A stretch of DNA of 64,000 nucleotides from NCBI GenBank assembly GCA_029855935.1, contig JAGSHN010000019.1, positions 41,216-105,215 of the forward strand. Direction: 5' to 3'. Both the position numbers and the translations under genes were made by a program. Shown in pieces: positions 8,870 through 31,002 of this stretch; the first letter of the stretch is position 1, and each line of letters starts with the position of its first letter. The notes under the pieces are model-generated. The model made no database searches. It was given only the letters and a program-made list of their open reading frames with translations, and was not told where the DNA came from. This DNA comes from Candidatus Thorarchaeota archaeon. GTDB taxonomy: Archaea; Asgardarchaeota; Thorarchaeia; Thorarchaeales; Thorarchaeaceae.

Positions 8870-8873
8870 CTCC

Positions 8874-10103: not shown

Positions 10104-10104
10104 T

Positions 10105-11201: not shown

Positions 11202-11222
11202 GTGTGATGCCCTCCTTGTTGT

Positions 11223-11561: not shown

Positions 11562-11598
11562 TGTCCTGCGTGATACGGGCCGCGCGCATCAGGTCGTA

Positions 11599-11606
11599 CT
11601 AATATG
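11599..11606 (-). promoter_or_regulatory. TATA-like box of the hydrogenase-like operon
   Basis: The minus strand reads CATATTAG about 40 bases before the nuoA-like start. The six genes downstream have gaps of 21 bases or less, so one promoter can serve them all. Confidence 0.4.
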
Positions 11607-11747
11607 CTTGGTGGTCGAGGCGGCAGACCTGAGCCCAGTGTCAAGTCCTGCCGTACGGTCACAGCGTCTTCCGAACGGGCTCGACGCAGACAATGATATC
11701 TCTCTCCACGTAGAACACAGTACCCCTTGCTGGCGATGTCCCTCCCC

Positions 11748-12287: not shown

Positions 12288-12374
12288 CTCTCAGCACCAA
12301 TCAGTTCACAGCCCAACGGTTCCTTAAGCTTATGTATTGCACCACTTCCATGTGAGGGTCGGAGTGATCTCACA

Positions 12375-12992: not shown

Positions 12993-13024
12993 GCGAGTTC
13001 TCGGGTTGCATGCGAGGGAGTCGT

Positions 13025-14433: not shown

Positions 14434-15566
14434 TGTGTAACGACCTCCCTTATCTTCTGCAGTATCTCCTGTGGCAGCTGTGGGGTCCCCACGGGCTTCC
14501 TCATCATATGCACGGGGGTAGTCCCTGCGCTTGCTCGTACCATATGATAGAGCTGGCCCATGTTCTGCTCAGCCACAACTATATGACGCACCTCGCTTGC
14601 AAGGTCCATTATGGCCCGCTCTGGGAACGGCCATATGGTCTTGAGCCTGAGCAGTCCTGCCTTGAGCCCCTGCCTACGCGCCTCACGAATGGCCCTCTTT
14701 GCGCTGCGTGATGGAGTACCGTATGCTATGATTGCGACATCAGCGTCGTCGAGTTGGAATCTCTCCATCTCCACGATCTTGTCGACATTCCTGAGTATCT
14801 TCTCGTTGAGCCTAGTGATCAGCTCCATCTGAACGTCGTCCTTGTCCGACGGATAGCCTCTCCAGTCGTGAGTGAGACCTGTGGCGTAGAACTGATACCC
14901 CGACCCGAAGGTCGCCATTGGTGGGACGAGGTCTTCGTCTGGCTTGAAGGGAAGGTACTCCTCCGGTGGCACTGTGGGCCGTTTGCGATCTACAATCTCA
15001 AGGTCCTTCTCATCCGGGATGACGAGTTTCTCTCGCATATGACCAACGGTCTCGTCCGCGAGGACAAAGACTGGCACCCGGTATTGTTCAGCAAGATTGA
15101 ACGCCCTGACTGTCTGGTCGAACATCTCCTGCACAGATGCGGGCGTGAGAGCAATGATCTGGTAGTCTCCGTGGCTCCCCCACTTGGCCTGCATCACATC
15201 GCCCTGCTGCCCTCTCGTCGGCTGTCCAGTGCTCGGACCGCCTCTCATTATATTGACGAGGACGAGTGGTGTCTCGGTCATCACAGCAAGCCCGATGGCC
15301 TCCATCATCAGGCTGACACCCGGTCCTGAAGTGGCAGTCATCGCCTTTGTTCCTGCCCAAGACGCACCAATCACACTGGTTATCGACGCAATCTCATCTT
15401 CATACTGGACATAGGCGCCACCGACCTGTGGCATCCGGATTGCCATCCACTCCGCAATCTCCGTTGCTGGCGTGATGGGATATCCTCCGAAGTACCTACA
15501 GCCAGCACTCAGCGCGCCCTCCGCACAGGCGACATCGCCCATTGTGAACATCACCCGCTCTGGCAA
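14430..15566 (-). CDS. korA: 2-oxoacid:ferredoxin oxidoreductase, alpha subunit
   Basis: A 378-residue alpha subunit. Signature stretches are GDVACAEGALSAGCRYFGGYPITPATEI (in part), VQYEDEIASITSVIGASWAG, SGPGVSLMMEAIGLA and RGGPSTGQPTRGQQGD. The GGYPITPATE and MRGGPSTG motifs, with the separate four-gene layout, fit 2-oxoglutarate (KorA) enzymes better than pyruvate enzymes. Branched-chain 2-oxoacids remain possible. One base separates it from the delta gene. Confidence 0.92.
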   Translation of the reverse strand: MPERVMFTMGDVACAEGALSAGCRYFGGYPITPATEIAEWMAIRMPQVGGAYVQYEDEIASITSVIGASWAGTKAMTATSGPGVSLMMEAIGLAVMTETPLVLVNIMRGGPSTGQPTRGQQGDVMQAKWGSHGDYQIIALTPASVQEMFDQTVRAFNLAEQYRVPVFVLADETVGHMREKLVIPDEKDLEIVDRKRPTVPPEEYLPFKPDEDLVPPMATFGSGYQFYATGLTHDWRGYPSDKDDVQMELITRLNEKILRNVDKIVEMERFQLDDADVAIIAYGTPSRSAKRAIREARRQGLKAGLLRLKTIWPFPERAIMDLASEVRHIVVAEQNMGQLYHMVRASAGTTPVHMMRKPVGTPQLPQEILQKIREVVTQ

Positions 15567-15926
15567 CTACTCGTCCTCCTCCTTCTCTCTCTTTGCACGC
15601 TCCTGCTCGAACTCCGGGATCAGTGTCCCCTCCTGAAGCGTTCCCTTCTCGTATGCCTCTCGTGCCTTCTCTCTCTCTGTCAAGAAGATCGCCATATCCG
15701 GGCATATTCTCTCACAGAACTCGCAGTTCACACACGCATCAATGTCGCACGCCGTGACGGGATGGTACCCCTTCCGGTTGTACTTGCTCATATCGAGACA
15801 CAGCACATTCTTCGGGCAGAACTCAACGCAGAGGCCGCACTGCTTGCACTGCTCTTGGAGAATGACCAGAACCTTCTCTCTCTTTCTGGCCGGTCTTGGT
15901 ACTATTGGTCTGCGGACGGTTGACAT
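15567..15926 (-). CDS. korD: 2-oxoacid:ferredoxin oxidoreductase, delta (ferredoxin) subunit
   Basis: A 119-residue subunit with two [4Fe-4S] motifs, CKQCGLCVEFCP and CVNCEFCERICP. An unusual highly charged tail of about 40 residues (Glu/Lys/Arg-rich, coiled-coil-like) follows the second cluster. It is the first gene of the operon. A minus-strand CTTATAG at about 16018-16026 could be its TATA box, nearly 100 bases upstream. Confidence 0.9.
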   Translation of the reverse strand: MSTVRRPIVPRPARKREKVLVILQEQCKQCGLCVEFCPKNVLCLDMSKYNRKGYHPVTACDIDACVNCEFCERICPDMAIFLTEREKAREAYEKGTLQEGTLIPEFEQERAKREKEEDE

Positions 15927-17710: not shown

Positions 17711-18613
17711 TCATTGGCCAAGGATGCGGCTGAGGAGGTCCTCGGTACTGATGACATGCTTGTGTAGACCCAGCTGTTCTGGCTCAAGGCCGAGCGCCAG
17801 CCCCAGAAGCTGTGTATAGTAGAGCACCGGCAGGTTGTACCTGTTCTCGCCGAGTTCCTTGTTGAGCTGCAGTTGTGAGAACTCGAACTGTAGATGACAG
17901 AAGGAACACACGTTGATGACAGCGTCTACTCCCGCAGCCATCATATTGTCGAGCTTCTCTCTGGCGATGTCAACGCTCACGGGCGCATTGCTCCCACGGA
18001 CGCCGCCGCCCGCACCACAGCACATGAACTTGTCCCGGTACTGCACACTCTCTGCACCGGTCGCCTCCACGAGTTCATCAAGGAACCTGTGCCTCTGAGT
18101 TCTTCTCCAAGGCCTGTTCTTGCTCGGTTTGAGCAGATGACACCCATAGTGGACCGCCACTCTGAGGCCCCTCAGTGGTCGCTTGACGAGTTCCCGTATT
18201 CTGTCCAGCCCGACGTCGAAGTAGATTACCTCGATGAGATGTCGGGCATCCACGTTCCCGGTGAACTTGATACCAAGCCCCTTGAAGACCCTCTGAACCT
18301 CTGCGAGCCGTTCAGGATGCTCGTGCAGCTCTGCAAGGGTTTCCTTGAATGTGCCATAGCACCCGTTGCAGCCAGTGATGATGTCGTGTCCGGCCTGCTC
18401 GGCAAGGGCGAGATTCCGGGAGGCCAGAGCAAGCCAGGTCGGCTCGTCAAACGACCTGATTACACCGGGTGCAGGGCAGCAACTGGCCCCTTGGAGATCC
18501 TCGAGCTCAATGCCAATGCGTGGCAGGACCTCCCTGATACTCTTCTCCACGTTTGGAAAACGATTCGGCATCACGCAGCCGAGAAAGAATGAATACGTTC
18601 TGCTCTCAGTCAT
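17711..18613 (-). CDS. hdrB: Heterodisulfide reductase subunit B-like protein (copy 1)
   Basis: A 300-residue protein with two cysteine-rich CCG domains. The first has FLGCVMP, GASCCPAPGV and GCNGCYG; the second has HYGCHLL, MCCGAGGG and CSFCHLQ. In methanogen HdrB these bind two noncubane [4Fe-4S] clusters that reduce a heterodisulfide. It overlaps hdrC copy 1 by 4 bases. All cluster ligands appear kept, so it should be active, but without CoM/CoB biosynthesis in view the natural disulfide substrate is uncertain. Confidence 0.92.
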   Translation of the reverse strand: MTESRTYSFFLGCVMPNRFPNVEKSIREVLPRIGIELEDLQGASCCPAPGVIRSFDEPTWLALASRNLALAEQAGHDIITGCNGCYGTFKETLAELHEHPERLAEVQRVFKGLGIKFTGNVDARHLIEVIYFDVGLDRIRELVKRPLRGLRVAVHYGCHLLKPSKNRPWRRTQRHRFLDELVEATGAESVQYRDKFMCCGAGGGVRGSNAPVSVDIAREKLDNMMAAGVDAVINVCSFCHLQFEFSQLQLNKELGENRYNLPVLYYTQLLGLALGLEPEQLGLHKHVISTEDLLSRILGQ

Positions 18614-19161
18614 TGACCGGACTCCTCCGTGCTCTCAATGAGGTCGATAAAGCCGGTCCTCCGCATTATCTCCTGGACCTGTTCCAGAGCCTCCCCGCTG
18701 GAGTGTGTCGTCGGCGGAATCTCCTGAAGCCCGAGCTCCCTGCGCATCTCCCGGTTCGCGTCGTCAAGTGGTACTGCGTGTCCGGTCTTGATCAGCTTCC
18801 GCGACGCCTTTCTGTGCTGAGGCAGCATAAAGCCCTCCTCCACGGCCATGTTCCTCATTATGATGATTGCATCAGTCACCTTGATCTGTCGCGGACAGCG
18901 TTCGAGGCATGTGAGGCACGTTGCGCACAGCCACAGATCGGGGGACGTGAGCACCTCCTCTTTCAGTCCGAGAAGTGCCTTCCTGATTATCTCCCGCGTT
19001 CTGAAGGCCGTTCTTCTGCCGCTGGGACAGACACTGGAACACGTGCCGCACTGAATACAGGTACGTATCCTATCAGCCCCAGCCTCAACAAGGGTGTCCA
19101 CAAACTTCGGGTCAATGTCCTCATCATCAATGATATCGCGGACAATAGTGGAGTCGGTCAT
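18610..19161 (-). CDS. hdrC: Heterodisulfide reductase subunit C-like protein (copy 1)
   Basis: A 183-residue electron-transfer subunit with two [4Fe-4S] motifs, CIQCGTCSSVCP and CATCLTCLERCP. It would carry electrons from HdrA flavin/clusters to HdrB. It precedes hdrB copy 1 in one operon (4-base overlap). Its N-terminus aligns well with the HdrC at 20489, which helped fix that start. Confidence 0.92.
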   Translation of the reverse strand: MTDSTIVRDIIDDEDIDPKFVDTLVEAGADRIRTCIQCGTCSSVCPSGRRTAFRTREIIRKALLGLKEEVLTSPDLWLCATCLTCLERCPRQIKVTDAIIIMRNMAVEEGFMLPQHRKASRKLIKTGHAVPLDDANREMRRELGLQEIPPTTHSSGEALEQVQEIMRRTGFIDLIESTEESGQ

Positions 19162-19207
19162 CAGGAACCCTCAACGCTTGTACTGGCGTGGAAGCGCGGC
19201 TATCAAG

Positions 19208-19218
19208 ACGATATAAGC
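19208..19218 (-). promoter_or_regulatory. TATA box of the minus-strand hdrCB pair
   Basis: The minus strand reads GGCTTATATCG about 47-57 bases before the hdrC start at 19161, a well-formed archaeal TATA box. Confidence 0.5.
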
Positions 19219-19246
19219 CTTCAGTACGGAAGTGCTGTTCTGATGC

Positions 19247-20329
19247 TCACTCGATATCGTACTCTGCGTCCGACAGTAGACCCACATTTCCCACTCGGAC
19301 GTTTGTCAGACCCGCCTCTCTTGCCACCTCGGCGGCTCTTCTTGCGTGCCTTCTGCTGGTCCTTGGAAGATCTGTCATATGGTGGTGTGGGGTGAAGCCC
19401 AGCAGGGCTGTAGGAATGGTTGGATCGCAGGATGCAATGAACTGGCACAGCTGGCGGACCTCGTGAAGACCGACGTAGCCCGGCACAAGCAGAATACTGG
19501 CCACTAGAAACTCGCCATCCCTGTTCCTTCCTCTTCCGGCGAGCGTTCTGAAGTTCTTGAGGACCAAGTCATTTCTGACGCCTGTGAGGGCGGTGTATAT
19601 CTGCGGGGAGAATGCCTTGAGGTCGAACTTGATGGTCCCTCCAGTAGACTCCACCATATCTGCGATTCTGTCGAGCCACTTGAAGGAGATGTTTCCATTG
19701 GTCTCGTAGCAGACCCGGACGAGTCGCTCCTCGTTTAGGAGGCGGGCGGTCTCCAGTGAGTGGGCTGCGTTGCACGCAGGGTCGCCCCCAAAGAAGCAGA
19801 CGCAGGCTGTGGCGGTGTCTGACACAGCGGCCAGTCCAGCAGCGGTCATCCGAGGTCGCCCTGTGACCATCATCTCCTTGTACGACTCGTTCTGACAGAA
19901 GAGGCAGTCGGAGTTGCACGAGCCGTAGAAGACTGCCAGATTCTTGAGACGTCTTCCATCGCGCGACAGCCCGCTCTTAGTAGTGACAGGGCACACCCAG
20001 TCGGCGACGCAATTTGTCGGGAGCGGGTCAAAGTACCATGAGACAATGGCCTCATCTGGATATCTCTCGACAACTCTTCCATCACGTACCGTGAAGGAAC
20101 CGCAGAAGCCAATCTCTCCCTCACTCAGCCTACAATGGTTACCGCACTCAGGACAGACATACTGCCCATCTGTCGGAGGCCTCGGAATCAGCCCCGCACG
20201 GGCCCGAAGGCTGGCGTGTGTGTCCACTGCTGTATTGACGAGGGTGCTGTCCTCTCTGTAGCACGCCCCACATCGTCCGAGGACGGATGCCGCCAGCGCC
20301 TCACGGTCCGGGTGCGCTGCACAGAACAT
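19247..20329 (-). CDS. Radical SAM protein, PflA/AmmeMemoRadiSam-like
   Basis: A 360-residue radical SAM enzyme. The CX3CX2C motif is in YGSCNSDCLFCQNE. N-terminal extra cysteines, GRCGACYRE and CPECGNHCRL...GFCG, suggest a zinc or rubredoxin-like knuckle. ETNGNISFKWLDRI and GGTIKFDLKAFSPQIY are typical of pyruvate-formate-lyase-activase-like members (COG1313 kind). No glycyl radical enzyme is encoded nearby, so the target is unknown; modification of a neighbouring Hdr protein is only a guess from position. It is divergent from hdrC copy 2. Confidence 0.82.
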   Translation of the reverse strand: MFCAAHPDREALAASVLGRCGACYREDSTLVNTAVDTHASLRARAGLIPRPPTDGQYVCPECGNHCRLSEGEIGFCGSFTVRDGRVVERYPDEAIVSWYFDPLPTNCVADWVCPVTTKSGLSRDGRRLKNLAVFYGSCNSDCLFCQNESYKEMMVTGRPRMTAAGLAAVSDTATACVCFFGGDPACNAAHSLETARLLNEERLVRVCYETNGNISFKWLDRIADMVESTGGTIKFDLKAFSPQIYTALTGVRNDLVLKNFRTLAGRGRNRDGEFLVASILLVPGYVGLHEVRQLCQFIASCDPTIPTALLGFTPHHHMTDLPRTSRRHARRAAEVAREAGLTNVRVGNVGLLSDAEYDIE

Positions 20330-20442
20330 AGTGGGCTCTGTATGCCCGGAAGCAATCTAATGTTTTGCCCTGTTCTAGGCCACTTCTTGGTGCCCCCTCC
20401 AGACGCTCAGACCGACAACGTGTCTTGCCCTTTGGTAATGGA

Positions 20443-20448
20443 TTTAAG
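20443..20448 (+). promoter_or_regulatory. TATA-like box of hdrC copy 2
   Basis: TTTAAG sits 41-46 bases before the chosen TTG start at 20489. Transcription would begin near 20472, which places the in-frame ATG at 20438 upstream of the transcript and argues against its use. Confidence 0.45.
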
Positions 20449-20488
20449 GCCGGAAGCAGAGTTGACCAGAGCAGTCGGTGGAACAACA

Positions 20489-21076
20489 TTGACGAGCCCT
20501 GAAACAGAGTCGGCAGTCATCATCGATGAGCCTGACACCTCGTTTGTCGAGATGATAAAGCGCACAGGTGGTCCGAACGTCCAGAACTGTTTTCAGTGCG
20601 GCACATGTAGCGGGAGCTGCCCCGCTGGGGCCCGGACGAACTATCTGGTCCGTCTGATCATAAGGAAAGCGCTGCTGGGCCTCAAAGAGGAGGTCATCTC
20701 GGCGCCAGAGCTGTGGTACTGTACCACGTGTTACACGTGTCAGGACCGCTGTCCTCAGGAGGTCAATCCGACGGACGTGATCAAGGCCATCCGCAACATT
20801 GCCGTGGCCGAGGGTTATATGCTGGACAATCACAGAAAGACCGCCGCAAAGGTCGTCGATGCTGGTCATGCTGTCCCCCTCGACAAGGACACCTGGAGAA
20901 AGCTTCGCGAGTCGGTCGGGCTTGAGCCAGTCCCGCCGAACGCCAGCGGCAATCCTTGGGCCATAGAGGAGATACGCAAGATCACGAGAAAGAGTGGCTT
21001 CGACTCACTCATCGGCTATGAGGAGATGCGTCGGGCTGCGGAGGAGAAGGCTCGCCAGAAGGCCAAGAAGGGGTGA
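20489..21076 (+). CDS. hdrC: Heterodisulfide reductase subunit C-like protein (copy 2)
   Basis: A 195-residue HdrC with CFQCGTCSGSCP and CTTCYTCQDRCP cluster motifs. The start is TTG 20489 with GGTGG upstream; it gives MTSPETESAVIIDEPD, which aligns end to end with the N-terminus of copy 1 (MTDSTIVRDIIDDED). A longer form from ATG 20438 is less likely because the promoter box overlaps it. The C-terminus has a Lys/Ala-rich tail. It is followed 8 bases later by hdrB copy 2. Confidence 0.9.
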   Translation: MTSPETESAVIIDEPDTSFVEMIKRTGGPNVQNCFQCGTCSGSCPAGARTNYLVRLIIRKALLGLKEEVISAPELWYCTTCYTCQDRCPQEVNPTDVIKAIRNIAVAEGYMLDNHRKTAAKVVDAGHAVPLDKDTWRKLRESVGLEPVPPNASGNPWAIEEIRKITRKSGFDSLIGYEEMRRAAEEKARQKAKKG

Positions 21077-21084
21077 TTTCACGG

Positions 21085-21999
21085 ATGGCACGGCCCAAAT
21101 TCTATCACTTCTTGGGATGCATCATCCCGCACAGATATCCCAGCATCGAGAGAGCTGCGAGGCTCGTCTTTGAGGACCTCGGTGTCGAGCTTCTCGATAT
21201 GGTGGGCGCGACGTGCTGTCCCGCCCCGGGTGTGTTCGGCTCTTTCGACCGCGTGACGTGGGCCAGCATTGCAGCGCGCAATCTCACCATTGCTGAGGCT
21301 GGTGGTCATCCGATCACTACTGGCTGCAACGGCTGTTTCGCGAGCCTTTGGGACGCGAACCATGAACTGCACGTGGACGAGGAGCTTCGGAAGAGGGTCA
21401 ACGAGAACCTTGCCGAGATTGGACGCGAGTTCAAAGGCACTATTGAGGTCACCCACTATGTCGATGTGCTTGTGAACACCGTGGGTCTGGATGAGGTGCG
21501 CCGACACGTGGTCCGTCCCCTTGAGGGTGTCAGGATGGCACTTCATCCCGGTTGTCACTGGATGCGTCCGCGCGCACTGAAGAAGAAGGACAATTCTGAG
21601 CGACCACGCATATTTCGCGAGCTCTGCGAGACCTCGGGCGCTGAGTACGTTCCCTACAAGGACGAACTGATATGCTGTGGCGCAGGTGGTGCCGTAAGGA
21701 CCGCGGATCTCAAGGTGTCACTTGACTTTACAAAGCAGAAGTTCGAGAGCATAGAGGAGGCGGGTGGCGCCGACATAATCGTCACGCCTTGCCCGTTCTG
21801 CGAACTTCAACTCGACCTAGGCCAAGTCGAGATTCAGAAGAACTTCGGAGTGGAGTTCACATACGATGTTCTTCACGTGATGGAGCTTCTTGCTCTCGCG
21901 TTCGGTCATGAGCCCGGTGAGTTTGGACTGAAGACGCACCTGCAGTATCTGCAGCGGAAGTCGGAGCCACGCTGGGAGCGTCTGGGTGTCAAGGCGTAA
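21085..21999 (+). CDS. hdrB: Heterodisulfide reductase subunit B-like protein (copy 2)
   Basis: A 304-residue HdrB with both CCG domains: FLGCIIP, GATCCPAPGV and GCNGCFA; then HPGCHWM, ICCGAGGA and PCPFCELQ. The ATG at 21085 with GGGGTGAT upstream is preferred over GTG 21073. Copy 1 at 17711 and this copy are closer to each other in these motifs than either is to copy 3. A hairpin follows just after the stop codon. Confidence 0.92.
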   Translation: MARPKFYHFLGCIIPHRYPSIERAARLVFEDLGVELLDMVGATCCPAPGVFGSFDRVTWASIAARNLTIAEAGGHPITTGCNGCFASLWDANHELHVDEELRKRVNENLAEIGREFKGTIEVTHYVDVLVNTVGLDEVRRHVVRPLEGVRMALHPGCHWMRPRALKKKDNSERPRIFRELCETSGAEYVPYKDELICCGAGGAVRTADLKVSLDFTKQKFESIEEAGGADIIVTPCPFCELQLDLGQVEIQKNFGVEFTYDVLHVMELLALAFGHEPGEFGLKTHLQYLQRKSEPRWERLGVKA

Positions 22000-22006
22000 T
22001 AAATGC

Positions 22007-22047
22007 GTAGAGAGGCAGAGTCTCGACCCTGGGGCCTACCTCTCTGC
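22007..22047 (+). other. Hairpin after hdrB copy 2
   Basis: GTAGAGAGG and CCTCTCTGC can form a 9-bp stem (one G-T pair) around a 23-base loop, beginning 8 bases after the stop codon. It may help 3' end formation or RNA stability. It has no trailing T tract, so it is not a classical terminator. Confidence 0.35.
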
Positions 22048-22134
22048 CTCACCTCAGGTAATCACTCGGTGTCAGTCGCTATCAGGCGATGACTGAGTCT
22101 GCACCTCCACTCGTGCAAGATCTGTCTCCTCCTC

Positions 22135-22157
22135 GTAGGTCCGGCCATTGGACCTAC
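22135..22157 (+). other. Perfect hairpin in the leader region of the HdrA-MvhD operon
   Basis: GTAGGTCC, a 7-base loop and GGACCTAC form an uninterrupted 8-bp stem. It lies in the 389-base gap (22000-22388) between hdrB copy 2 and hdrA-mvhD, about 180 bases before the promoter box. Apart from this, the hairpin at 22007 and the promoter box at 22334, I see no gene or tRNA-like structure in the gap. Confidence 0.4.
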
Positions 22158-22333
22158 ACCGAGAGAGATACGCACGCGTATACCTTCTCGTCGCTCTCAT
22201 CTGTCTGCGTCCCAACAGGTATTCTTGACCTCATCATATAGAAATCCTTCGGACTCGAAAGGCCTGTCTAGTCTTTGTCACACTGCTCTGATGATGTGTC
22301 ACAGGACCTCAGACGCACGGCGCGACAACTAAC

Positions 22334-22340
22334 CTTTTAT
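22334..22340 (+). promoter_or_regulatory. TATA-like box of the hdrA-mvhD operon
   Basis: CTTTTAT lies about 50 bases before the ATG at 22389. A transcript starting near 22366 would leave a short leader with GGAG near 22374, supporting ATG 22389 and excluding the upstream TTG at 22275. Confidence 0.45.
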
Positions 22341-22388
22341 CGTGCAAATTCGACCACTGAGGCTATCACGGACGGAGTGACCTCAGAT

Positions 22389-25300
22389 ATGGCGGCGACT
22401 GCAACCAAGCCGGTCGTTGTGATCGGCGCAGGGATTGCTGGCATCAGAGCAGCGCTCGACCTTGCGGACACAGGCATCAAGGTCTATCTTGTGGAGCGAA
22501 ATCCGTCGATTGGCGGCCACATGTCACAGCTTGACAAGACCTTTCCGACCCTTGACTGCAGCATGTGTATAATGGGTCCGTGGATGGTCGACTGTTCACG
22601 GCACCCCAATATCGAGATACTCTCCTATTCCGAGGTCGTCGAGGTATCTGGTCAGCGTGGTGACTTCAAGGTCCGCGTGCTGAGGCACAATCGTCGTGTG
22701 GACCCTGACAGGTGCACTGGCTGCGGCGACTGTCAGCGAGTCTGTCCAATCGAGGTGCCAAACGAGTACGACCTTGGCCTAAAGATGCGAAAGGCCGCCT
22801 ACATCCCCTTTGCCCAAGCAGTCCCGAATGTCGCGACCATTGACATTGACAATTGTATACAGTGCATGATGTGCGTCAAGACCTGCAAGGCTGACGCCAT
22901 AGACTTTGATATGAAAGACGAGGAGATGGAGATTGAGGCGGCGTCCATAATTGTCAGTACAGGATACGAGCTACTTGATCCGGCCACTGTGCCTGAGTAT
23001 GGTTATGGCCGTTTTGCCAACGTGGTCACTGCGCTTGAGTATGAACGGATGGTCTCGGCCAGTGGTCCCACAGGCGGTGTTGTGGTACGTCCGTCCGATG
23101 GACGGGAGCCACACACGATTGCGTTTGTCCAGTGTGTTGGGTCAAGAGATGTTAATCACTGCTCTTACTGTTCGAGAATCTGCTGCACGTACGCGACGAA
23201 GGAGGCGATAATCACCAAGGAGCACACTCCTGAGGTGCATATCGACATAATGTACAACGACCTCCGCGCTTTCGGAAAGGGCTTCGAAGAGTTCTTGGTC
23301 CGTGGAAAGAGAGACTACGGTATCAACTACGTGAAAGGACTTCCGAGTGAGATACTTGAGGACCCGGAAACGCGTGACCTGATTGTGCGTCACGTTGATG
23401 CAACAGGTCGCAAGGTCGTGGCAGAACGATATGACCTCGTCGTGCTATGTCCCGCAATAGTTCCAACGGACAATCAAGAGCTGTTTGACAGGCTTGGCGT
23501 GAAGGTGGACGCCAACGGCTTCGTCACAGTTCCTGACTCCTCCATCGAGACAGTGGGTACGACCGTTCCCGGAATCTATGTGGCTGGTGCCACAGAGGCC
23601 CCTAAGGACATTCCGGACTCTGTTGCGCACGCAAGCGCCGCGGCCGCCCTGTCCATCCTCGACAACTCGCTCCCGCCGCCGACGACTACTACCGAGTCTG
23701 TCCCCGCCAAGGCAGAGGAGGCCGTTGCAGACCCGCGAATTGGGGTGTTCGTGTGTTCGTGTGGGATAAACATCGCTGGTGTCGTGGATGTTGCTGATGT
23801 CACTCAGTACGCCTCCACCCTGCCGAACGTTGTGTACTCAGAGAACCTGCTCTATGCGTGTTCGTCGGACTCGCAAGAGGTGATCAAGGAGGCAATCAAG
23901 GAGCACGGTCTGACACGTGTCATTGTCGCGTCGTGTACACCACGGACGCATGAGCCGCTCTTCCGGGCGACGGTCGAGGAGGCTGGTCTGAACAAATACC
24001 TATTCGAGATGGCAAACATCCGGGAACACTGCTCGTGGATTCATCAGAGCGCCAAGGACGAGGCGACTGAGAAGGCCAAAGACCTTGTCAGGATGGCCGT
24101 GGCTCGGGCACAGCTCCTAGAGCCTCAGGAGGAGGCCACGACCCCCGTGGAGGGCGCAGCCCTCATCATCGGTGCAGGTGTCACCGGGATGTCCGCTGCG
24201 GAGCTCATTGCGGAGAAGGGCTTCAAGGTCTACCTTGTCGACAAGAGTGAGCGTGTGGGAGGACTCCTCAATCATCTGGCCACTGTGAACTTCGACTATA
24301 CTCCCTCAACAGAGATAATCAGTTCCCTGCAGCAGAGGGTGGTCGACAATCCGAACATAGAGATTCTGCTGGGCTCTGAGGTCGTAGACAATCGAGGCTC
24401 GGTCGGAGACTTCAACGTCACAATCCGTACCCCCAATGGCCTGCGCGACCTCAAGGTGGGCGTTGTGATAATCGCCACCGGTGCCGTGCCACTCGATGAG
24501 AAGGGTCTCTTTGGTCTTCACGAGCTGCCGGGTGTGATGACAGAGGTCGACCTGAGCCAGAAGATCGCCTCCGGCGAGGACATCAAGGATGGCGATACGT
24601 TTGCGGTCATTCATTGCGCCGGGTCTCGCGAGGACGAGTCGATAGAGGGGGCAAGGACATGGTGTTCCTCCATCTGCTGTACAGTGGCGCTGGAACATAC
24701 GCTTGAGCTACTGGAGAAGTATCCCAACTCGCGGGTGTTCCACTTCTATCGTGACCTCAGGGTGTCATACGACGGCGAGGACAAGTACCGCGAGGCACGG
24801 AAGAAGGGCGTCATCTTCATGAGATACGACAGGGATGACCCTCCCGTCGTCACTGAGGGCAAGGAGCGGAGGCTGCGTGTCGAGGCCTTTGACCTCCTGC
24901 TGGGAGCCCGTGTCGGTGTGGAGGTTGACCATGTAGTTCTCGCCACAGCGATGATACCCCCCTCTGGCAACAAGCAGGTATCGGAGCTGTTCAAGACCCC
25001 ACTCAATACCTCAGGATTCTTCATGGAGGCCCATCCGAAGCTACGCCCTGTCGACTCTCAGACGGATGGCATCTTCGTGGCAGGAACAGCAACGGCACCA
25101 AAGCGCATCCACGAGAGTATCATCCAGGGTCGGGCGGCGGCCGCCCGGGCGCTTGTACCTCTGGTGAACGGCGTGCGCAAAGCCGAGGCGATAGTGTCGG
25201 TGGTCGACCCCGACATCTGTGTCGGCTGTGGAACCTGTGAGATCAACTGCGCCTTTGGTGCCATCGAGGTCGTTCCCGGTCAGGGTGGTCATGACTATGC

Positions 25301-25847
25301 TGTGTCGAATCCGGTACTGTGTCAGGGCTGCGGGAAGTGTGCCGCTGGCTGTCCGGCTGGCGCCATCACAATGAAACACTTCACCGATGACCAGATCTTC
25401 GCTCAGATGCGCGCGGCCATCGAGGACATCCCTCCGACTGAACTGAGAATTCTCACCATTGTCTGTAACTGGTGCAGCTATGCAGGGGCGGACAGTGCGG
25501 GTGTGGCACGACTTCAGCAGCCCCCCTCCGTACGCGACATCCGTGTGATGTGCACTGGTAGGATAAGCGTCACACATCTTCTTGAGGCCTTCCGGTTGGG
25601 TGCCGATATGGTCTGGGTCTCCGGTTGTCATGTTGGCGACTGCCACTACGTTGATGGAAACTTGGCCTTTGACAGGCGATTCAGGATCGCACGAAAGATA
25701 CTCGAGAAGGCCGGTCTGGAGCCCGAGAGGCTCCAGTTCACGCACATCAGCGCAAGTGAGGGTGCGGCGTGGGCCGATGCTGTCCGTAGGATGACGGAGC
25801 TGGTGGAACGACTTGGGCCGAGCCCGTTACGTCGGAGAGGCGGATGA
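22389..25847 (+). CDS. hdrA: HdrA-like flavoprotein with two FAD modules and a C-terminal MvhD domain
   Basis: A 1152-residue fusion. In order: FAD Rossmann fold (VVVIGAGIAGIRAALDLA) with the HdrA cysteine motif TLDCSMCIMGP; two clusters (CTGCGDCQRVCP, CIQCMMCVKTCK); an HdrA core domain (VFVCSCGINIAG to SCTPRTHEPLF); a second FAD fold (LIIGAGVTGMSAAELIA); two more [4Fe-4S] motifs (CVGCGTCEINCA, CQGCGKCAAGCP); and from about residue 1019 an MvhD domain with CNWCSYAGAD, MCTGR and GCHVGDC for a [2Fe-2S] cluster. HdrA proteins bifurcate electrons; MvhD links them to a hydrogenase or dehydrogenase. The fused MvhD suggests a partner other than a standard MvhAG, none of which is encoded here. It starts an operon with hdrC and hdrB copy 3. 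Confidence 0.9.
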   Translation: MAATATKPVVVIGAGIAGIRAALDLADTGIKVYLVERNPSIGGHMSQLDKTFPTLDCSMCIMGPWMVDCSRHPNIEILSYSEVVEVSGQRGDFKVRVLRHNRRVDPDRCTGCGDCQRVCPIEVPNEYDLGLKMRKAAYIPFAQAVPNVATIDIDNCIQCMMCVKTCKADAIDFDMKDEEMEIEAASIIVSTGYELLDPATVPEYGYGRFANVVTALEYERMVSASGPTGGVVVRPSDGREPHTIAFVQCVGSRDVNHCSYCSRICCTYATKEAIITKEHTPEVHIDIMYNDLRAFGKGFEEFLVRGKRDYGINYVKGLPSEILEDPETRDLIVRHVDATGRKVVAERYDLVVLCPAIVPTDNQELFDRLGVKVDANGFVTVPDSSIETVGTTVPGIYVAGATEAPKDIPDSVAHASAAAALSILDNSLPPPTTTTESVPAKAEEAVADPRIGVFVCSCGINIAGVVDVADVTQYASTLPNVVYSENLLYACSSDSQEVIKEAIKEHGLTRVIVASCTPRTHEPLFRATVEEAGLNKYLFEMANIREHCSWIHQSAKDEATEKAKDLVRMAVARAQLLEPQEEATTPVEGAALIIGAGVTGMSAAELIAEKGFKVYLVDKSERVGGLLNHLATVNFDYTPSTEIISSLQQRVVDNPNIEILLGSEVVDNRGSVGDFNVTIRTPNGLRDLKVGVVIIATGAVPLDEKGLFGLHELPGVMTEVDLSQKIASGEDIKDGDTFAVIHCAGSREDESIEGARTWCSSICCTVALEHTLELLEKYPNSRVFHFYRDLRVSYDGEDKYREARKKGVIFMRYDRDDPPVVTEGKERRLRVEAFDLLLGARVGVEVDHVVLATAMIPPSGNKQVSELFKTPLNTSGFFMEAHPKLRPVDSQTDGIFVAGTATAPKRIHESIIQGRAAAARALVPLVNGVRKAEAIVSVVDPDICVGCGTCEINCAFGAIEVVPGQGGHDYAVSNPVLCQGCGKCAAGCPAGAITMKHFTDDQIFAQMRAAIEDIPPTELRILTIVCNWCSYAGADSAGVARLQQPPSVRDIRVMCTGRISVTHLLEAFRLGADMVWVSGCHVGDCHYVDGNLAFDRRFRIARKILEKAGLEPERLQFTHISASEGAAWADAVRRMTELVERLGPSPLRRRGG

Positions 25848-25851
25848 TGAG

Positions 25852-26400
25852 GTGACAGACGTGAGCGATGAGACGTGGGGTCAGTTCAAGACCTTTGAGA
25901 ACGCGGTCTTTGAGGCCTTTGACAGCGAGTTCACAAGAGAGGCGTCGAGACTCATCGGAGGCCAGGATCTCCAAGCCTGCTTCCAGTGTACGAAGTGCAG
26001 TGCCGGCTGCCCGGTGAGCGACAAGGTCAACGTACAGGTGCACGAGTTGATGCGGATGCTCGTGCTGGGCCTACGGGAGGTCCTTGAGACGGACATGGTG
26101 TGGCTCTGCACGACGTGCTATACCTGCCAGGAGCGGTGTCCTCAGGGCATCCACATCACCGACATAATCTTCGGCCTCAAGAATATGGCCTTCAGGCGCG
26201 GCATTGCCCCGCCCGGATATCTCGCTGCGCGCGAGGGGCTCTACAACACGGGGCGTCTGTACGAGCCCACAGAGTGGGAACGAGAGGACCTCGATCTGGA
26301 TCCGGTCCCGGAGTTCGACATAGATGACATCCAGACACTGTTCGAGGCGACAGGTCTGATGGGCCTCGGGAAGGGGAAGAAGAAGGCGGGGGGCGAGTGA
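25852..26400 (+). CDS. hdrC: Heterodisulfide reductase subunit C-like protein (copy 3)
   Basis: A 182-residue HdrC with CFQCTKCSAGCP and CTTCYTCQERCP. The GTG at 25852, four bases after the HdrA stop, is preferred; TTG 25813 would overlap hdrA by 35 bases and GTG 25861 is also possible. The C-terminus is Lys/Gly-rich. It sits between hdrA-mvhD and hdrB copy 3, giving a complete A-C-B set. Confidence 0.88.
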   Translation: MTDVSDETWGQFKTFENAVFEAFDSEFTREASRLIGGQDLQACFQCTKCSAGCPVSDKVNVQVHELMRMLVLGLREVLETDMVWLCTTCYTCQERCPQGIHITDIIFGLKNMAFRRGIAPPGYLAAREGLYNTGRLYEPTEWEREDLDLDPVPEFDIDDIQTLFEATGLMGLGKGKKKAGGE

Positions 26401-26401
26401 G

Positions 26402-27277
26402 ATGGGTGAACAGTACGAGGTATTTCTTGGCTGCGCCATTCCAAGCCGGTTCAACAACTATGAGAGCTCTATGCGAGCTGTTGCAGAGGCTCTTGACATC
26501 GAGCTACTCGACTTTGAGGGCGCCTCGTGTTGTGGGACTGTTGTGCTCAAGTCCATAGACGAAACGAGTTGGCTGGCCCTGTCTGGCCGGAATCTCGCTC
26601 TGGCCGAGAGCCGTGGTCACAACGTCGTGACACCCTGCAACGGGTGCTATGGTTCTCTCAGGGACACGCATCATGTGCTCACCGAGAACGAGGAGCATCG
26701 CAATACAATCAACAAGGTCCTGGGCAAGCTCGGACTGGAGTTCAAGGGATCGGTGCAGGTGCGTCACTTTGTCGAGGTGCTGTACGACCTGCGTGATAGA
26801 ATCAGGGAGAGGATTGTGAGGCCTCTGGAGGGACTACGTATCGCCTTCCATCCGGGTTGCCATCTCATCCGCCCGTCCAATGTCACTGGGTTCGACGATC
26901 CGGAGCTACCGCGTAAGGTCGATGAGCTGTTAGAACTGACAGGCGCGAAGAGCATATACTGGCCGCTGAAGCTGAGATGCTGTGGCTCTCCTCTCCTCAT
27001 TGCGAGTGAGGATGTCGCGATGAGAATACTCCGCGAGAAGATGCAGTCCGCAAAGGACTCCGGTGCCAATTGTGTGGTGACGAACTGTCCCGCCTGTCAC
27101 ACACAGTTTGATGTCCAGGCATTGGGCCTGACGAATGAGGCGGGCGAGTCGCTGGAGCTTCCGGCTCTTTTTGTCACGCAGGTGCTGGGCCTCGCGATGG
27201 GTCTCGATCCTGAGCCTCTAGGCCTTGATCTGAACAGGGTCCCGCTCGACCCCATTGCAGATATCCTGGGCATCTGA
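26402..27277 (+). CDS. hdrB: Heterodisulfide reductase subunit B-like protein (copy 3)
   Basis: A 291-residue HdrB with two CCG domains: FLGCAIP, GASCCGTVVL and PCNGCYG; then HPGCHLI, RCCGSPLL and NCPACHTQ. The first CCG motif has CCGTVVL where the other two copies have CCPAPGV, and the second has CCGSPL rather than CCGAGG. These differences around the cluster ligands suggest a different substrate disulfide or redox potential. It follows hdrC copy 3 by one base. Confidence 0.92.
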   Translation: MGEQYEVFLGCAIPSRFNNYESSMRAVAEALDIELLDFEGASCCGTVVLKSIDETSWLALSGRNLALAESRGHNVVTPCNGCYGSLRDTHHVLTENEEHRNTINKVLGKLGLEFKGSVQVRHFVEVLYDLRDRIRERIVRPLEGLRIAFHPGCHLIRPSNVTGFDDPELPRKVDELLELTGAKSIYWPLKLRCCGSPLLIASEDVAMRILREKMQSAKDSGANCVVTNCPACHTQFDVQALGLTNEAGESLELPALFVTQVLGLAMGLDPEPLGLDLNRVPLDPIADILGI

Positions 27278-27302
27278 GTGGAAATCGTCGACGCGTTTCT
27301 AT

Positions 27303-27884
27303 TCACTCTGCCGGCTCAGTCTGGAGTTTGCTCTCTCCGTAGAAGAGCTCCCCAATCTGTCTCATTGCATCCCTGACACATTCTCTCTTCCCACTGACGA
27401 GGAGGTGTCTGTCGCCATCAAGGCATATCAGGACCCTGCAGTGCTCGGCGAGTTCGGAGATCACCTCGACGGGTATGTCCTCCGGGAGACGTATCCTGAA
27501 GAATCCCACATCCTTCTCACGGGGCAGCTCCGTGATTGGCGTGGTCGGCTCCTGCTCTGGCAACGGGACCTCACCGTGCAGGGCGGCGTCAAAGCGCTCC
27601 TCCCACGATCTGCGATACTCCACCCCACCGCTCTCCTCGGCCCAGACCATCAGCATCTCGCGCAGTGAGTAGATCTTCTCCTCCATCTCAGTCCTCAACT
27701 GAGCATCAGCACCCTCTGTGGCACTGATGACATCCCTGTACGATCGCAGGTACTCAATGACCATCTTGCTATTGCGAAGGTCAGCATAGGTCAGGCTCGG
27801 TATGAAGACGCCTCTCTTCGTGAGCTCGCCCAGTAGGTCGTTGAGAACGACCCAGCACGCGGCGAGCTCCTCTATAGACACCAT
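27303..27884 (-). CDS. DUF2096-like archaeal protein
   Basis: A 193-residue soluble protein without cysteine clusters. The N-terminal half is helical (SIEELAACWVVLNDLLGEL, then ADLRNSKMVIEYLRSYRDV), and the C-terminal part from about 125 looks alpha/beta (FFRIRLPEDIPVEVISELAEH). This resembles DUF2096, a family found in methanogens and relatives with no known function. It is 10 bases downstream of the second hdrA on the same strand and convergent with hdrB copy 3, so it is probably co-transcribed with hdrA. The family label is from memory and should be checked by search. Confidence 0.55.
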   Translation of the reverse strand: MVSIEELAACWVVLNDLLGELTKRGVFIPSLTYADLRNSKMVIEYLRSYRDVISATEGADAQLRTEMEEKIYSLREMLMVWAEESGGVEYRRSWEERFDAALHGEVPLPEQEPTTPITELPREKDVGFFRIRLPEDIPVEVISELAEHCRVLICLDGDRHLLVSGKRECVRDAMRQIGELFYGESKLQTEPAE

Positions 27885-27894
27885 TGCTACTCAC

Positions 27895-30800
27895 TCACTC
27901 CCGCAGCATCTCGGCAATCTGCTCCATGTAGCTCTTCTCGCGCCACCATCTGAGGTCACGCGCGCCAGTCGGGCATATAGCTGCACAGGCGCCACAGCCT
28001 TGGCATCGCATCTCATCAGTGACGCTCTTCTTCACTCCGGGAGCCACCTCTATCATGCTGATTGCGTCATAGGGGCATATCTCGGAGTAGTGGCACAGGT
28101 CACAGCCGACACACAGTTCCTCGTCGACCACTGCCGTGAGCAGCTCTATGTCGACCTTTCCGAGAGTCAGCGGAACGACCGCCTGACTCGCTGCGCCTCT
28201 TGCCTGATTCACCGAGTCAGAGACGTTCTTTGCATAGGTCACTCCGAGAAAGACTCCTGGGACGGTGGTCTCCACGGGCCTGAACTTCATATGCATCTCT
28301 GCGAGGAACCCGTCCTGTCCTCTGTTGATACCAAGGGCCTTGACAAGGTCATTGACATCGTGTGGCGCCTCGAGTCCGAGAGCAAGGACGACCATATCAG
28401 ACTTGATCTTGAATGTCTTCTGTGTGAGAGTGTCGTAGATGGTCACAATGGCGCCGTCGCCATCCGGGTCTCTATCAACAGTCACAGGACGTTCTCGCAC
28501 CCAGCGCAGATAGGTGATCCCCATCTGCCTGTTCCCGCGCCACATCTCCTCCATCTTGTTGCCGAACGGCCGTATGTGTTCCTTGTAGGCCGAGAAGATT
28601 CTGATGTCCGGGAACTTCTCCTTGAGTTCTCTCTGGAGCGTGATCACAGCCGAACAGCAGACGCGTGAGCAGTACCTATTGCCCTCTCCCGGGTTCTGTC
28701 TCGATCCGACGCAGTGAATGAAGACAGGGTTCTTGGGTGGAGTCTTCAACTCACCGTTACGTAGCCGCCGCTCCAGCTCCAGAGTCGTGATGACAGCCGG
28801 CACCTCGCCCCAGCCATATTCGCCCTGCTTCGGTTCGTACGTGTCAGTGCCAACGGTGATGACAACCGTGCCGACACGATAGGTTGTTCGTTCTCCAGTC
28901 TCGACGTTCTCGACAGTGATGTCATAGTTACCATAGCTGCCGTCACGTGCCACTGGCTTGGACTTGAACACGACCTCAATGCGTCTATTGCGCTCAATCC
29001 TACCGACAAGGTCCTCCACTATCTCACTTGCGGGCGTGAGGTCCGGGAAGAGGCGATACAGCTCGTTAAGGCGTCCGCCAAGTCTGTCGGTCTTCTCTAC
29101 AAGGACGACATCGAATCCCTTCTTCGCAATGTCCAGTGCGGCAGTCATCCCCGAAACGCCGCCACCGATGACCATCACGCGTCGGGTGACCTCAACGGTC
29201 TTGACGGGGACTTCCTCGTTGTTGATGGCCTTGGCGACACCACTGCGGATCATATCCTGCGCCTTCTCCTGACGCACTTCCGGTGGCGCGTGAGCGTTGA
29301 CTAGGGCCAACTGCTCCCGCAGGCCAACGGGGCCGACGAGGTAGTATCCCGATAGCCCTGCTCTCTCAAGGGCGCGTCTGAACGTCTGCTCGTGCTGGAG
29401 CGGCGAGCAGGAGCCGACGACGACCCGATTGAGCTTATGTTCCTTGATGGCCTCTGTTATCAGTTCTTGTCCTGGGTCACTGCACATGAAGAGATAGTCA
29501 GTACTGTATACCACATGCGGGAGGCTCTTCGCCCACTCAGCCAGCCCTGGCGAGTCGATGACATTACCGATGATGCCACCGCAGTGGCAGATGAACACGC
29601 CGACCCTTGGCTCATCGCCGACCTCTATGGGCTCGATATCAGGTGGAGGCGCTGGCTCCGGGAGCGGGAGAATTGAATTGGCCACCATTGCCACACCCTT
29701 GCCCTCATTGACCGTGTCAGTGCCATCGCGTGGGCCATGGGCGCAGCCTGCGACGTAGATGCCGGGGCGTGTTGTCTCAAGGGCTGCAGTATTGGGGTGT
29801 CTCTCCTTTATCCATCCATTCTCATCAATCTCTATCTTTAGTAGCTTTGCAAGCTCCTCGTGACCCTGATTGGGACGGAAACTCGAGTTAAGCACAACCA
29901 TCGAGATCTTCTCTAGCTCCTTTATCTCGCCAGTCTCCGTGTCCTCAATCTTGACGAAGAGGTCGTGCGTGTCTGGGTCCTCTGAGATCTCGGCGACGCG
30001 GCCTCGGATGAACTTGATGCCCTGATTGTGCTGGGAGTCCCAGAGGAACTCCTCAAGGGCCTTACCCGCCGTCCGCAGGTCCATGTAGGTGTAGATTATC
30101 TCACAGTGGTCCTCCGGATAGTGCATCCTTGTGACCTGTGCCAACTTCAGTCCAAAGGAGCAACACACTCTGTTGCAGTGCTGGCTGTATCCCTGAATCT
30201 CCCCTCGCACGTCTCTGCTGCCTACACAGTTGATGAACAGTATCCTCTCGGGCTCTCTGCCATCGGAGGGTCTCACCATGTGAGCATCGGTGGGTCCTGT
30301 TGGATGCGACATTCTATCGTACTCAAGACTGGTGACGACATTGGGGAAGATGCCATACCCGTACTCCCCGTAGTCTAGGGGCTTGTATTCCTGGAACCCT
30401 GTGGCCACGATGATGGCGCCAACCTTCAGGTCGATGAGCTTGTCCTTGTCGTCGTAATTGATACAATCCTGTGGGCAGACGCCTGCACAGGTCCCACAGC
30501 CTATACATGCCTCCCTGTCGATTGTTGCAATGAGCGGGACCTGCTGTGGGAAGTTCATATAGATGGCCTTTCGCAATGACAGACCGTGATTGTACTCATC
30601 TGGTACCTCTACGGGGCACGCCCGGATGCACATCTGGCAACCAGTACACTTCTCCTCGTCGACGTATCGAGCCCTCTTTCTTATGGTGACGGTGAAATTA
30701 CCCTTTGAGCCCCTGACTTTCTCCACAGTCGAGAGTGCGTAGATTGTGATGTTTGGATGCTTGCCCACGAATGATGTCAGCGGTGTCATCACGCAGGCCG

Positions 30801-31002
30801 AACACTCGAGTGCGGGAAAGATCTTGTAGATGGCAACGTAGTTTCCGCCGATGTTCACAGTCCTCTCTATCATGTGGACATGGTATCCACTGTTCGCAAG
30901 GTCCAGGGCAGCATTGATGCCAGCCATTCCCCCGCCAATGACGAGGACATCCCTGGGTCTGCTGCCAGTCGAGTCGGGCCTCTCGGCTGATTGGCTCACC
31001 AT
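27895..31002 (-). CDS. hdrA: HdrA-like flavoprotein with two FAD modules (second copy)
   Basis: A 1035-residue HdrA. In order: FAD fold (DVLVIGGGMAGINAALDLA) with the motif ALECSACVMTP; clusters CTGCQMCIRACP and CIGCGTCAGVCP; the HdrA core domain (VFICHCGGIIGN, GSCSPLQHEQTF); a second FAD fold (VMVIGGGVSGMTAALDIA); and C-terminal clusters CVGCDLCHYSEICP and CQGCGACAAICP. It lacks the MvhD domain of the copy at 22389 and ends soon after the last cluster. It has no hdrB/C of its own in its operon, so it may pair with one of the other two BC sets in trans, with an external electron donor. A minus-strand TATA-like GTTATATCG lies near 31051-31061. Confidence 0.9.
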   Translation of the reverse strand: MVSQSAERPDSTGSRPRDVLVIGGGMAGINAALDLANSGYHVHMIERTVNIGGNYVAIYKIFPALECSACVMTPLTSFVGKHPNITIYALSTVEKVRGSKGNFTVTIRKRARYVDEEKCTGCQMCIRACPVEVPDEYNHGLSLRKAIYMNFPQQVPLIATIDREACIGCGTCAGVCPQDCINYDDKDKLIDLKVGAIIVATGFQEYKPLDYGEYGYGIFPNVVTSLEYDRMSHPTGPTDAHMVRPSDGREPERILFINCVGSRDVRGEIQGYSQHCNRVCCSFGLKLAQVTRMHYPEDHCEIIYTYMDLRTAGKALEEFLWDSQHNQGIKFIRGRVAEISEDPDTHDLFVKIEDTETGEIKELEKISMVVLNSSFRPNQGHEELAKLLKIEIDENGWIKERHPNTAALETTRPGIYVAGCAHGPRDGTDTVNEGKGVAMVANSILPLPEPAPPPDIEPIEVGDEPRVGVFICHCGGIIGNVIDSPGLAEWAKSLPHVVYSTDYLFMCSDPGQELITEAIKEHKLNRVVVGSCSPLQHEQTFRRALERAGLSGYYLVGPVGLREQLALVNAHAPPEVRQEKAQDMIRSGVAKAINNEEVPVKTVEVTRRVMVIGGGVSGMTAALDIAKKGFDVVLVEKTDRLGGRLNELYRLFPDLTPASEIVEDLVGRIERNRRIEVVFKSKPVARDGSYGNYDITVENVETGERTTYRVGTVVITVGTDTYEPKQGEYGWGEVPAVITTLELERRLRNGELKTPPKNPVFIHCVGSRQNPGEGNRYCSRVCCSAVITLQRELKEKFPDIRIFSAYKEHIRPFGNKMEEMWRGNRQMGITYLRWVRERPVTVDRDPDGDGAIVTIYDTLTQKTFKIKSDMVVLALGLEAPHDVNDLVKALGINRGQDGFLAEMHMKFRPVETTVPGVFLGVTYAKNVSDSVNQARGAASQAVVPLTLGKVDIELLTAVVDEELCVGCDLCHYSEICPYDAISMIEVAPGVKKSVTDEMRCQGCGACAAICPTGARDLRWWREKSYMEQIAEMLRE

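Follow-up and report, generated by a model that had tools for sequence, protein, structure and literature searches.

The described systems closest to the locus reported here are the methanogen heterodisulfide reductase (Hdr) complex HdrABC-MvhADG (5odc) and HdrA2B2C2 of M. acetivorans (PMC5296606); the type II HdrA proteins (A3 and A3+MVH of Lyu et al. 2025, PMC12054007; HdrA3/HdrA4 of anaerobic methanotrophic (ANME) archaea, Chadwick et al. 2022, PMC9012536); the Ehe/Ehd systems of Culexarchaeia and Methanomethylicia (PMC9723716); the sHdr-LbpA system, whose lipoate carriers are established (PMC6067878); and the Hdr-type methylene-tetrahydrofolate (THF) reductase of acetogens (PMC9430772). 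Asgard Hdr clusters are likewise known, as are the HdrA type, the HdrBC subunits and the MvhD fusion considered below. For Atabeyarchaeia and Freyarchaeia, the Hdr disulfide has been stated as an unidentified heterodisulfide (PMC11291895), and in Culexarchaeia, where GcvH is also present, a role of this protein as disulfide carrier for HdrB has already been suggested (PMC9723716). Here, we analyse an Hdr island of three HdrB/HdrC pairs and two HdrA genes, one of them fused to MvhD, in a 64,000-nt stretch (the window; G000:C8:41216-105215) of a Candidatus Thorarchaeota genome of 2.97 Mb on 32 contigs. Relatives are referred to by family (f), locus (L) and contig (C) labels.

In our reading, for which we see the case as evenly poised, the island represents separate redox modules of a non-methanogenic archaeon—the HdrA-MvhD fusion with the third pair (AAD-C3B3), the first two pairs (C1B1 and C2B2), and the second HdrA (AA)—that would bifurcate or confurcate electrons, with a protein-bound lipoyl disulfide as best substrate candidate.

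Two double-length HdrA proteins of separate lineages

Pfam and NCBIfam profiles concur on all eight Hdr genes, which lie exactly where the first-pass annotation had placed them. The fused gene (22389-25847, plus strand) encodes an HdrA-MvhD of 1152 aa and the second HdrA gene (27895-31002, minus strand) a protein of 1035 aa without MvhD. Mapping of their residues onto 5odc_A (HdrA of Methanothermococcus thermolithotrophicus; reference rebuilt from alignments) revealed a trait absent from the earlier annotation, namely that both hold two flavin adenine dinucleotide (FAD)/thioredoxin-reductase (TrxR) halves in one chain. The N half of AAD comprises a TrxR-FAD domain with an inserted 2[4Fe-4S] ferredoxin (eight Cys), Cys194, Cys197, Glu356 and Lys409, and lacks the N-terminal cluster domain as well as the C-terminal ferredoxin. 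Its C half carries the N-terminal cluster domain, TrxR-FAD, the C-terminal ferredoxin and then a complete MvhD domain; it has no inserted ferredoxin, and Cys197, Glu356 and Lys409 are replaced by Glu, Ser and Glu, respectively. AA follows the same plan minus MvhD, with the inserted ferredoxin, Cys194/197, Asp356 and Lys409 in its N half, and the N-terminal cluster domain, C-terminal ferredoxin and a Lys409-to-Thr exchange in its C half. The TrxR-cluster cysteines are retained in every half of both proteins, and the key N-half positions are invariant in relatives. Most simply, AAD and AA would each be a single-chain pseudo-dimer in which one flavin is competent for bifurcation.

Such double HdrA proteins correspond to type II HdrA as defined by Lyu et al. 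(PMC12054007), where Glu356 and Lys409 serve as bifurcation markers, and complementarity of this kind between Cys197 and the N-terminal domain was reported by Chadwick et al. (PMC9012536). AAD and AA share with type II HdrA the two TrxR/FAD halves per chain, the complementary loss of N-terminal domain and Cys197, the A6-like and A12-like halves, and an MvhD that is either fused or not. The half order is A6-A12, as in Lyu et al. (PMC12054007), whereas Chadwick et al. (PMC9012536) give the reverse. Glu356 and Lys409 occur together in just one AAD half, compared with both being present in 75% of type II sequences (PMC12054007). Unlike in the described cases, the host is a non-methanogenic Asgard archaeon without methyl-coenzyme M reductase (MCR), and neither a molybdopterin enzyme nor FdhB is encoded beside the two genes.

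When compared with unfused HdrA of the same genome (locus L028), the AAD halves showed 51% (A6) and 40% (A12) identity, as opposed to 27% between the two halves. Recent internal duplication within HdrA is thereby ruled out, each half being closer to a distinct HdrA class than to the other half. A tree of double HdrA sequences splits the two proteins into well-supported lineages (AAD, 99/98; AA, 100/100, the latter with relatives from f13 and f26), so that AAD and AA appear to be two old lineages rather than interchangeable duplicates. An AlphaFold2 model of AAD (predicted local distance difference test (pLDDT) 69, predicted template-modelling score (pTM) 0.74), to which 8rvy_A and 5odc_A were the closest PDB structures (E-values of about 1e-47 to 1e-46), lends modest support to the pseudo-dimer reading.

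HdrB/HdrC pairs fall into alpha and beta classes

HdrB1 (17711-18613, minus strand) and HdrB2 (21073-21999, plus strand) score 395 and 368 bits against TIGR03288, above its cut-off of 345 bits, and HdrB3 (26402-27277, plus strand) stays under it with 282 bits. For the partner subunits, the TIGR03290 cut-off of 160 bits is passed by HdrC1 (18610-19161, minus strand; 205 bits) and HdrC2 (20489-21076, plus strand; 192 bits) and not by HdrC3 (25852-26400, plus strand; 102 bits). The genes are tightly packed in places, with intergenic gaps of –4 bp (C2/B2), 4 bp (AAD/C3) and 1 bp (C3/B3), and 389 bp between B2 and AAD.

Three further HdrBC pairs and additional HdrA genes are encoded outside the island. 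In all six HdrB of the genome, the ten cysteine ligands of the two non-cubane clusters are kept, including Cys81 and Cys234, which form the bridge between the catalytic irons of HdrB but lack this function in EtfD (PMC13083937). The loops around these cysteines vary. B1 and B2 carry CCPAPGV and B3 carries CCGTVVL, as noted in the first-pass annotation, and the methanogen-like CCPAPG and CCGAGGxVR loops are kept in B1 (CCPAPG ... CCGAGGGVR), B2 and the HdrB of locus L027; B3 (CC-GTVVL ... CCGS--PLL) and the HdrB of loci L028 and L029 have lost residues in both cluster loops. HdrC co-varies with HdrB, the GHAVP region being present in C1, C2 and C4 and gone in C3, C5 and C6.

A tree of 58 HdrB rows, which is unrooted, represents methanogens by PDB sequences and contains no sulfate reducers, places the alpha class, including B1 and B2, on one side of a branch (100/99) together with four methanogen sequences, and the beta class, including B3, on one side of another (99/95), apart from the methanogen-bearing clade. 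A third class with a CCPDP motif received weaker support (94/67). A position of all pairs inside standard methanogen HdrBC clades had been named in the first-pass annotation as speaking against its proposal; at the level of sequence, this applies to B1 and B2 and not to B3, in an organism without the MCR that would form the heterodisulfide of coenzymes M and B (CoM-S-S-CoB). Pairwise identities of 40% (B1/B2), 43% (B1/B3) and 38% (B2/B3), along with the tree, exclude a recent duplication, and the pairs are indeed not the near-identical copies that the same annotation had named as a counter-indication.

The HdrB cluster cysteines, HdrC, MvhD, FAD and ferredoxin elements are shared with both HdrABC-MvhADG (5odc) and HdrA2B2C2 of M. 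acetivorans, and AAD resembles HdrA2 of the latter in its MvhD fusion (PMC5296606). The island departs from these systems in that its HdrA are asymmetric double chains and not homodimers, MvhAG is not encoded in the cluster, the B3/C3 pair lies outside the methanogen-bearing clade and the host lacks MCR.

Gene order points to a fixed partner for the beta pair

Of 47 genomes in the family, 37 have a close B3 orthologue (73–86% identity), and a B3 search of named genomes returned Asgard archaea only, the close named relatives being Candidatus Thorarchaeota. AAD-C3-B3 is contiguous in most family loci long enough to show the region, and the adjacency of AA to a DUF2096 gene is nearly constant across family loci. 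Given this conservation, the island is not a chance assembly. C1B1 and C2B2 are divergently oriented in relatives too, with inserted genes sometimes parting C2B2 from AAD, and one single-contig genome (L048, L112) has C3B3 without AAD beside it.

Outside the family, f6 and f12 contain a tight AAD-HdrC-HdrB-FrhB operon with 46–47% identity to B3 and 48% to AAD (FrhB called by Pfam, for L122). More generally, in f1, f6, f11, f12, f13, f24 and f26, beta HdrB have an asymmetric HdrA, either fused or split, as neighbour; the exception is two f11 beta HdrB that adjoin a complete HdrA-MvhD. Alpha HdrB outside the Thorarchaeota island adjoin a complete single HdrA, or no HdrA. Because of the AAD-C-B adjacency within the family, the f6/f12 operons and the company that beta HdrB keep, we read AAD as paired fixedly with C3B3. 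The earlier proposal that two HdrA might serve three BC modules in a mix-and-match way is not borne out: C3-B3 is tied to HdrA-MvhD, also in two other Asgard families, C1B1/C2B2 form a divergent pair, and AA belongs to a different lineage with links of its own. Comparison of gene order, which the first-pass annotation had recommended, revealed a block conserved in the family, with BC pairs that appear not to be interchangeable.

Lipoyl carriers as candidate disulfide substrates

A search for the MCR alpha subunit found none in the genome, with both methanogen controls positive. Candidate substrates emerged from gene order in other Asgard families, where non-canonical GcvH-like carriers keep the lipoyl lysine and have motifs such as ESGKW, ETGKW, EAGKY or EAGKG in place of ESVKA. 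In f13, an operon consists of an AA-lineage HdrA-MvhD, a GcvH-like carrier, HdrC and HdrB. In f12, 30 bp separate the end of a GcvH-like gene from a set of HdrA-MvhD, HdrB and HdrC, and in f6, a single run of DUF2096, alpha HdrB, alpha HdrC, lipoate-protein ligase and GcvH-like genes is divergent from NuoABCDH. f26 has two carriers by HdrBC and, elsewhere, a carrier and a lipoate ligase with DsrE/F/H genes and HdrCB.

Overall, 19 of 33 non-canonical carrier loci (8/14 families) have an Hdr or Nuo-like gene at most 3 kb away, compared to none of 18 canonical GcvH loci (0/7 families). The corresponding Fisher p-values, 3e-5 by locus and 0.018 by family, are descriptive owing to a biased seed and a class boundary refined after a first look, the family count being the fairer one; with a narrower motif, i.e. 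EAGKY/EAGKG counted as canonical, they become 0.08 and 0.04, respectively. The window's genome itself encodes one non-canonical carrier, on C16 next to GlcF/GlcD-like genes, a canonical GcvH (C14) and lipoate ligases. For the window, the lipoyl link is thus one by homology and synteny in other families, as opposed to its own gene order.

As the AA-lineage operon of another Asgard family joins a GcvH-like carrier to HdrC and HdrB, the disulfide is probably not CoM-S-S-CoB, and the best candidate is that of a lipoyl group carried by a dedicated protein of the GcvH-like kind. The disulfide chemistry other than CoM-S-S-CoB that was put forward in the first-pass annotation is likely.

Upstream of the island, the window holds genes H, D, C, B and A of a Nuo-like membrane complex (7778-11561, minus strand). 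Its D subunit (8874-10103) keeps both [NiFe]-binding CxxC motifs (RICGICS and DPCYSC), which places the complex with the group 4 hydrogenases. HdrBC in the neighbourhood of Nuo-like genes of this [NiFe] kind recall the Ehe/Ehd systems (PMC9723716). In contrast to these, some 6 kb separate the Nuo-like genes of the window from HdrBC, 2-oxoacid:ferredoxin oxidoreductase genes (gamma, beta, alpha and ferredoxin-like; 13025-15926, minus strand) lie in between, and the carrier is encoded elsewhere in the genome. In f6, Nuo-like and HdrBC genes are close together. The 2-oxoacid oxidoreductase is a possible ferredoxin source.

Proposed electron flow and alternative explanations

From genes, residues, lineages, gene order and the absence of MCR, each read directly from the sequence, we infer pairing, electron path, substrate and direction as follows. 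AAD, C3 and B3 would form a soluble flavin-based bifurcating or confurcating complex around the HdrA pseudo-dimer, with a donor subunit encoded outside the island, such as MvhAG elsewhere in the genome or FrhB, as in the homologous operons of other families. C1B1 and C2B2, having no dedicated HdrA, would be disulfide-cleaving modules of the methanogen type, partnered by AA or by the nearby Nuo-like hydrogenase. Modelled on the methanogen enzyme as summed up in PMC9012536, with ligand presence being what is seen in AAD, electrons from the donor would pass via MvhD and the C-terminal ferredoxin to the N-half FAD. From there, one branch would run through the inserted ferredoxin to free ferredoxin, and the other through the TrxR cluster to HdrC and HdrB. 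The lipoyl disulfide has a potential of about –290 mV. For CoM-S-S-CoB, it is –145 mV (PMC9012536). Because the former is much lower, a lipoyl system working with H2 or F420H2 would be near equilibrium and could confurcate, oxidising ferredoxin and dihydrolipoyl protein.

More broadly, we tentatively propose, while considering it rather more likely to be wrong than right in this general form, that dedicated non-canonical GcvH-like lipoyl proteins replace coenzymes M and B in Asgard archaea, including Thorarchaeota, and that the lipoyl disulfides bound to these proteins are reduced or oxidised, with coupling to ferredoxin together with H2 or F420H2, by asymmetric double-HdrA complexes and by group 4 hydrogenases linked to HdrBC.

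Several observations weigh against a lipoyl-linked system in the island. No carrier, lipoate ligase, MvhAG or FrhB gene is present in the island itself, and the non-canonical GcvH-like gene of Thorarchaeia adjoins GlcF/GlcD-like genes. The carrier search was seeded with an HdrBC-adjacent carrier, which favours such loci; the sampled loci are not independent; and carriers beside Nuo-like genes may do another job. A search of the genome found no ComA, which would speak for the reading but is a weak negative, as the control M. acetivorans also returned none. The AAD model is cofactor-free and of modest confidence (pLDDT 69). The Thorarchaeia carrier locus (L208, L215, L216) is itself conserved, comprising the GlcF/GlcD-like genes (for a CCG-domain protein and an FAD dehydrogenase) and an AAA ATPase gene.

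A possible, if rather unlikely, alternative is ordinary H2-dependent Hdr-Mvh bifurcation, in which MvhAG from elsewhere docks on the MvhD of AAD, the substrate is a small heterodisulfide, and the extra BC pairs are condition-specific isoenzymes. In its favour, the MvhD domain at the end of AAD is complete, a scheme with H2, ferredoxin and a heterodisulfide yet to be identified has been proposed for Atabeyarchaeia and Freyarchaeia (PMC11291895), and MvhAG-like genes, none of which lies within the Hdr island, exist on contigs C24 and C28. On C24, locus L028 (G000:C24:76000-92000; 2738-13136) combines a type III HdrA that has a GltD insert with a beta HdrCB, two split HdrA of the A6 and A12 kinds and the full MvhDGA set. 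It is oriented divergently to a gene for an aldehyde ferredoxin oxidoreductase and may encode an NAD(P)H, H2, ferredoxin and disulfide complex. On C28, locus L030 (G000:C28:4000-15000; 3024-8901) has MvhA, MvhG and MvhD by an aldehyde ferredoxin oxidoreductase and a ferredoxin gene, with no Hdr gene. However, each of these MvhAG sets thus comes with its own neighbouring MvhD gene, the AAD-C-B homologues of f6 and f12 are accompanied by FrhB and not MvhAG, and the lipoyl-carrier operons are left unexplained. Docking of MvhAG is compatible with the donor side of the modular reading.

It is improbable that HdrBC act without disulfide cleavage, passing electrons to another enzyme as proposed for the acetogen MetVF-HdrABC-MvhD set or serving as a plain wire as in EtfD. 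The acetogen Hdr-type methylene-THF reductase does share with the island a fused HdrA with two TrxR domains, HdrBC and MvhD (PMC9430772), the Moorella and Sporomusa sets of this reductase contain an HdrA to which a second TrxR half is fused (PMC9430772, PMC9012536), and the cluster loops of B3 are altered. Yet all six HdrB keep the ten cluster cysteines with positions 81 and 234 (for their role, see PMC13083937), and MetF, in contrast to the acetogen system, is unlinked to Hdr: its gene, on contig C21, has no Hdr neighbour, and MetVF is not encoded with HdrABC. A MetF-Hdr link was consequently rejected.

Highly improbable, in our estimate, is a sulfur-oxidising sHdr-LbpA system or a direct relative thereof, with HdrBC acting on lipoyl-bound sulfane sulfur or persulfide fed by DsrE-type proteins. 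With that system the island shares HdrBC flanking an HdrA gene, the order hdrC1B1A-hyp-hdrC2B2 (PMC6067878) resembling C2B2-AAD-C3B3, and lipoate carrier, ligase and DsrE genes in relatives, of which the f26 set beside HdrCB is an example. In the same genome, a DsrE-family gene leads an HdrC-HdrB-HdrA-MvhD-VhuG-like-FrhB operon (L027, G000:C24:50000-64000; 2684-9353), which suggests a sulfur-transfer link and F420 as redox partner. Against this stand the 1035 and 1152 aa of the HdrA proteins, which are long and bear ferredoxin and N-terminal domains, compared to the short sHdr subunit (6tjr, about 340 aa); a window without a carrier gene, carriers being found in the relatives f6, f12, f13 and f26; and zero or one Cys in nearly all Asgard carriers examined, as opposed to two typical of LbpA, to which archaeal exceptions exist (PMC6067878). 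The ferredoxin- and H2-type enzymes, moreover, indicate an anaerobe and not a sulfur oxidiser.

We would be greatly surprised if the substrate were CoM-S-S-CoB or something closely analogous, obtained by scavenging or through a synthetic route not yet recognised, since the methanogen loops of B1 and B2 and their clade with methanogen HdrB are set against a genome with no MCR to form the heterodisulfide and, more weakly, no ComA.

Neighbouring genes

Two further genes inside the block had escaped the first-pass annotation. One, between the two divergent alpha pairs (19247-20329, minus strand), encodes a radical SAM protein (AmmeMemoRadiSam-like; PF04055), and was dropped as part of a module given its presence in some relatives only. 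The other, ahead of AA (27303-27884, minus strand; gap of 10 bp), encodes a KH-like DUF2096 protein (PF23100/PF09869). Across the window, L137 (8702-9274) and L170-L176, DUF2096 genes neighbour HdrA in Thorarchaeia and alpha HdrBC in f6; they adjoin a HycI-type hydrogenase protease gene in f13 and lie near CooC-like ATPase and CobO genes in f11. A role as Hdr-specific subunit is unsupported in view of the hydrogenase maturation or CooC-like neighbours in other families, and the protein may help to assemble nickel or iron-sulfur enzymes.

Another Hdr locus of the genome, L029, combines HdrCB and two HdrA next to an acyl-CoA dehydrogenase gene. A conserved protein of ~750 aa that contains a winged-helix stretch and, at its C terminus, a 4Fe-4S dicluster domain is encoded there (9045-11321) and adjoins beta HdrBC in f1, f24, f25 and f26 (further loci: L113, L120, L121, L124). 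Group 3b (sulf)hydrogenase genes lie beyond the second HdrA in several relatives (L038, L042, L044, L111) and on contig C2 in the window's genome. An actin gene at 62843-63982 of the window is in line with the Asgard assignment.

Implications for Asgard energy metabolism

A literature search, covering few subscription papers, returned no report of the carrier association across Asgard families, the alpha/beta split of HdrBC or the two HdrA lineages. Asgard genomes widely encode Hdr complexes, and the carrier link offers a concrete candidate for their disulfide. If true, GcvH-like lipoyl proteins would give an identity to the ‘unidentified heterodisulfide’ on which Asgard energy metabolism draws. 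The link would also connect the heterodisulfide system of methanogens with bacterial sHdr-LbpA, and would matter for understanding energy metabolism in those archaea that are closest to eukaryotes.

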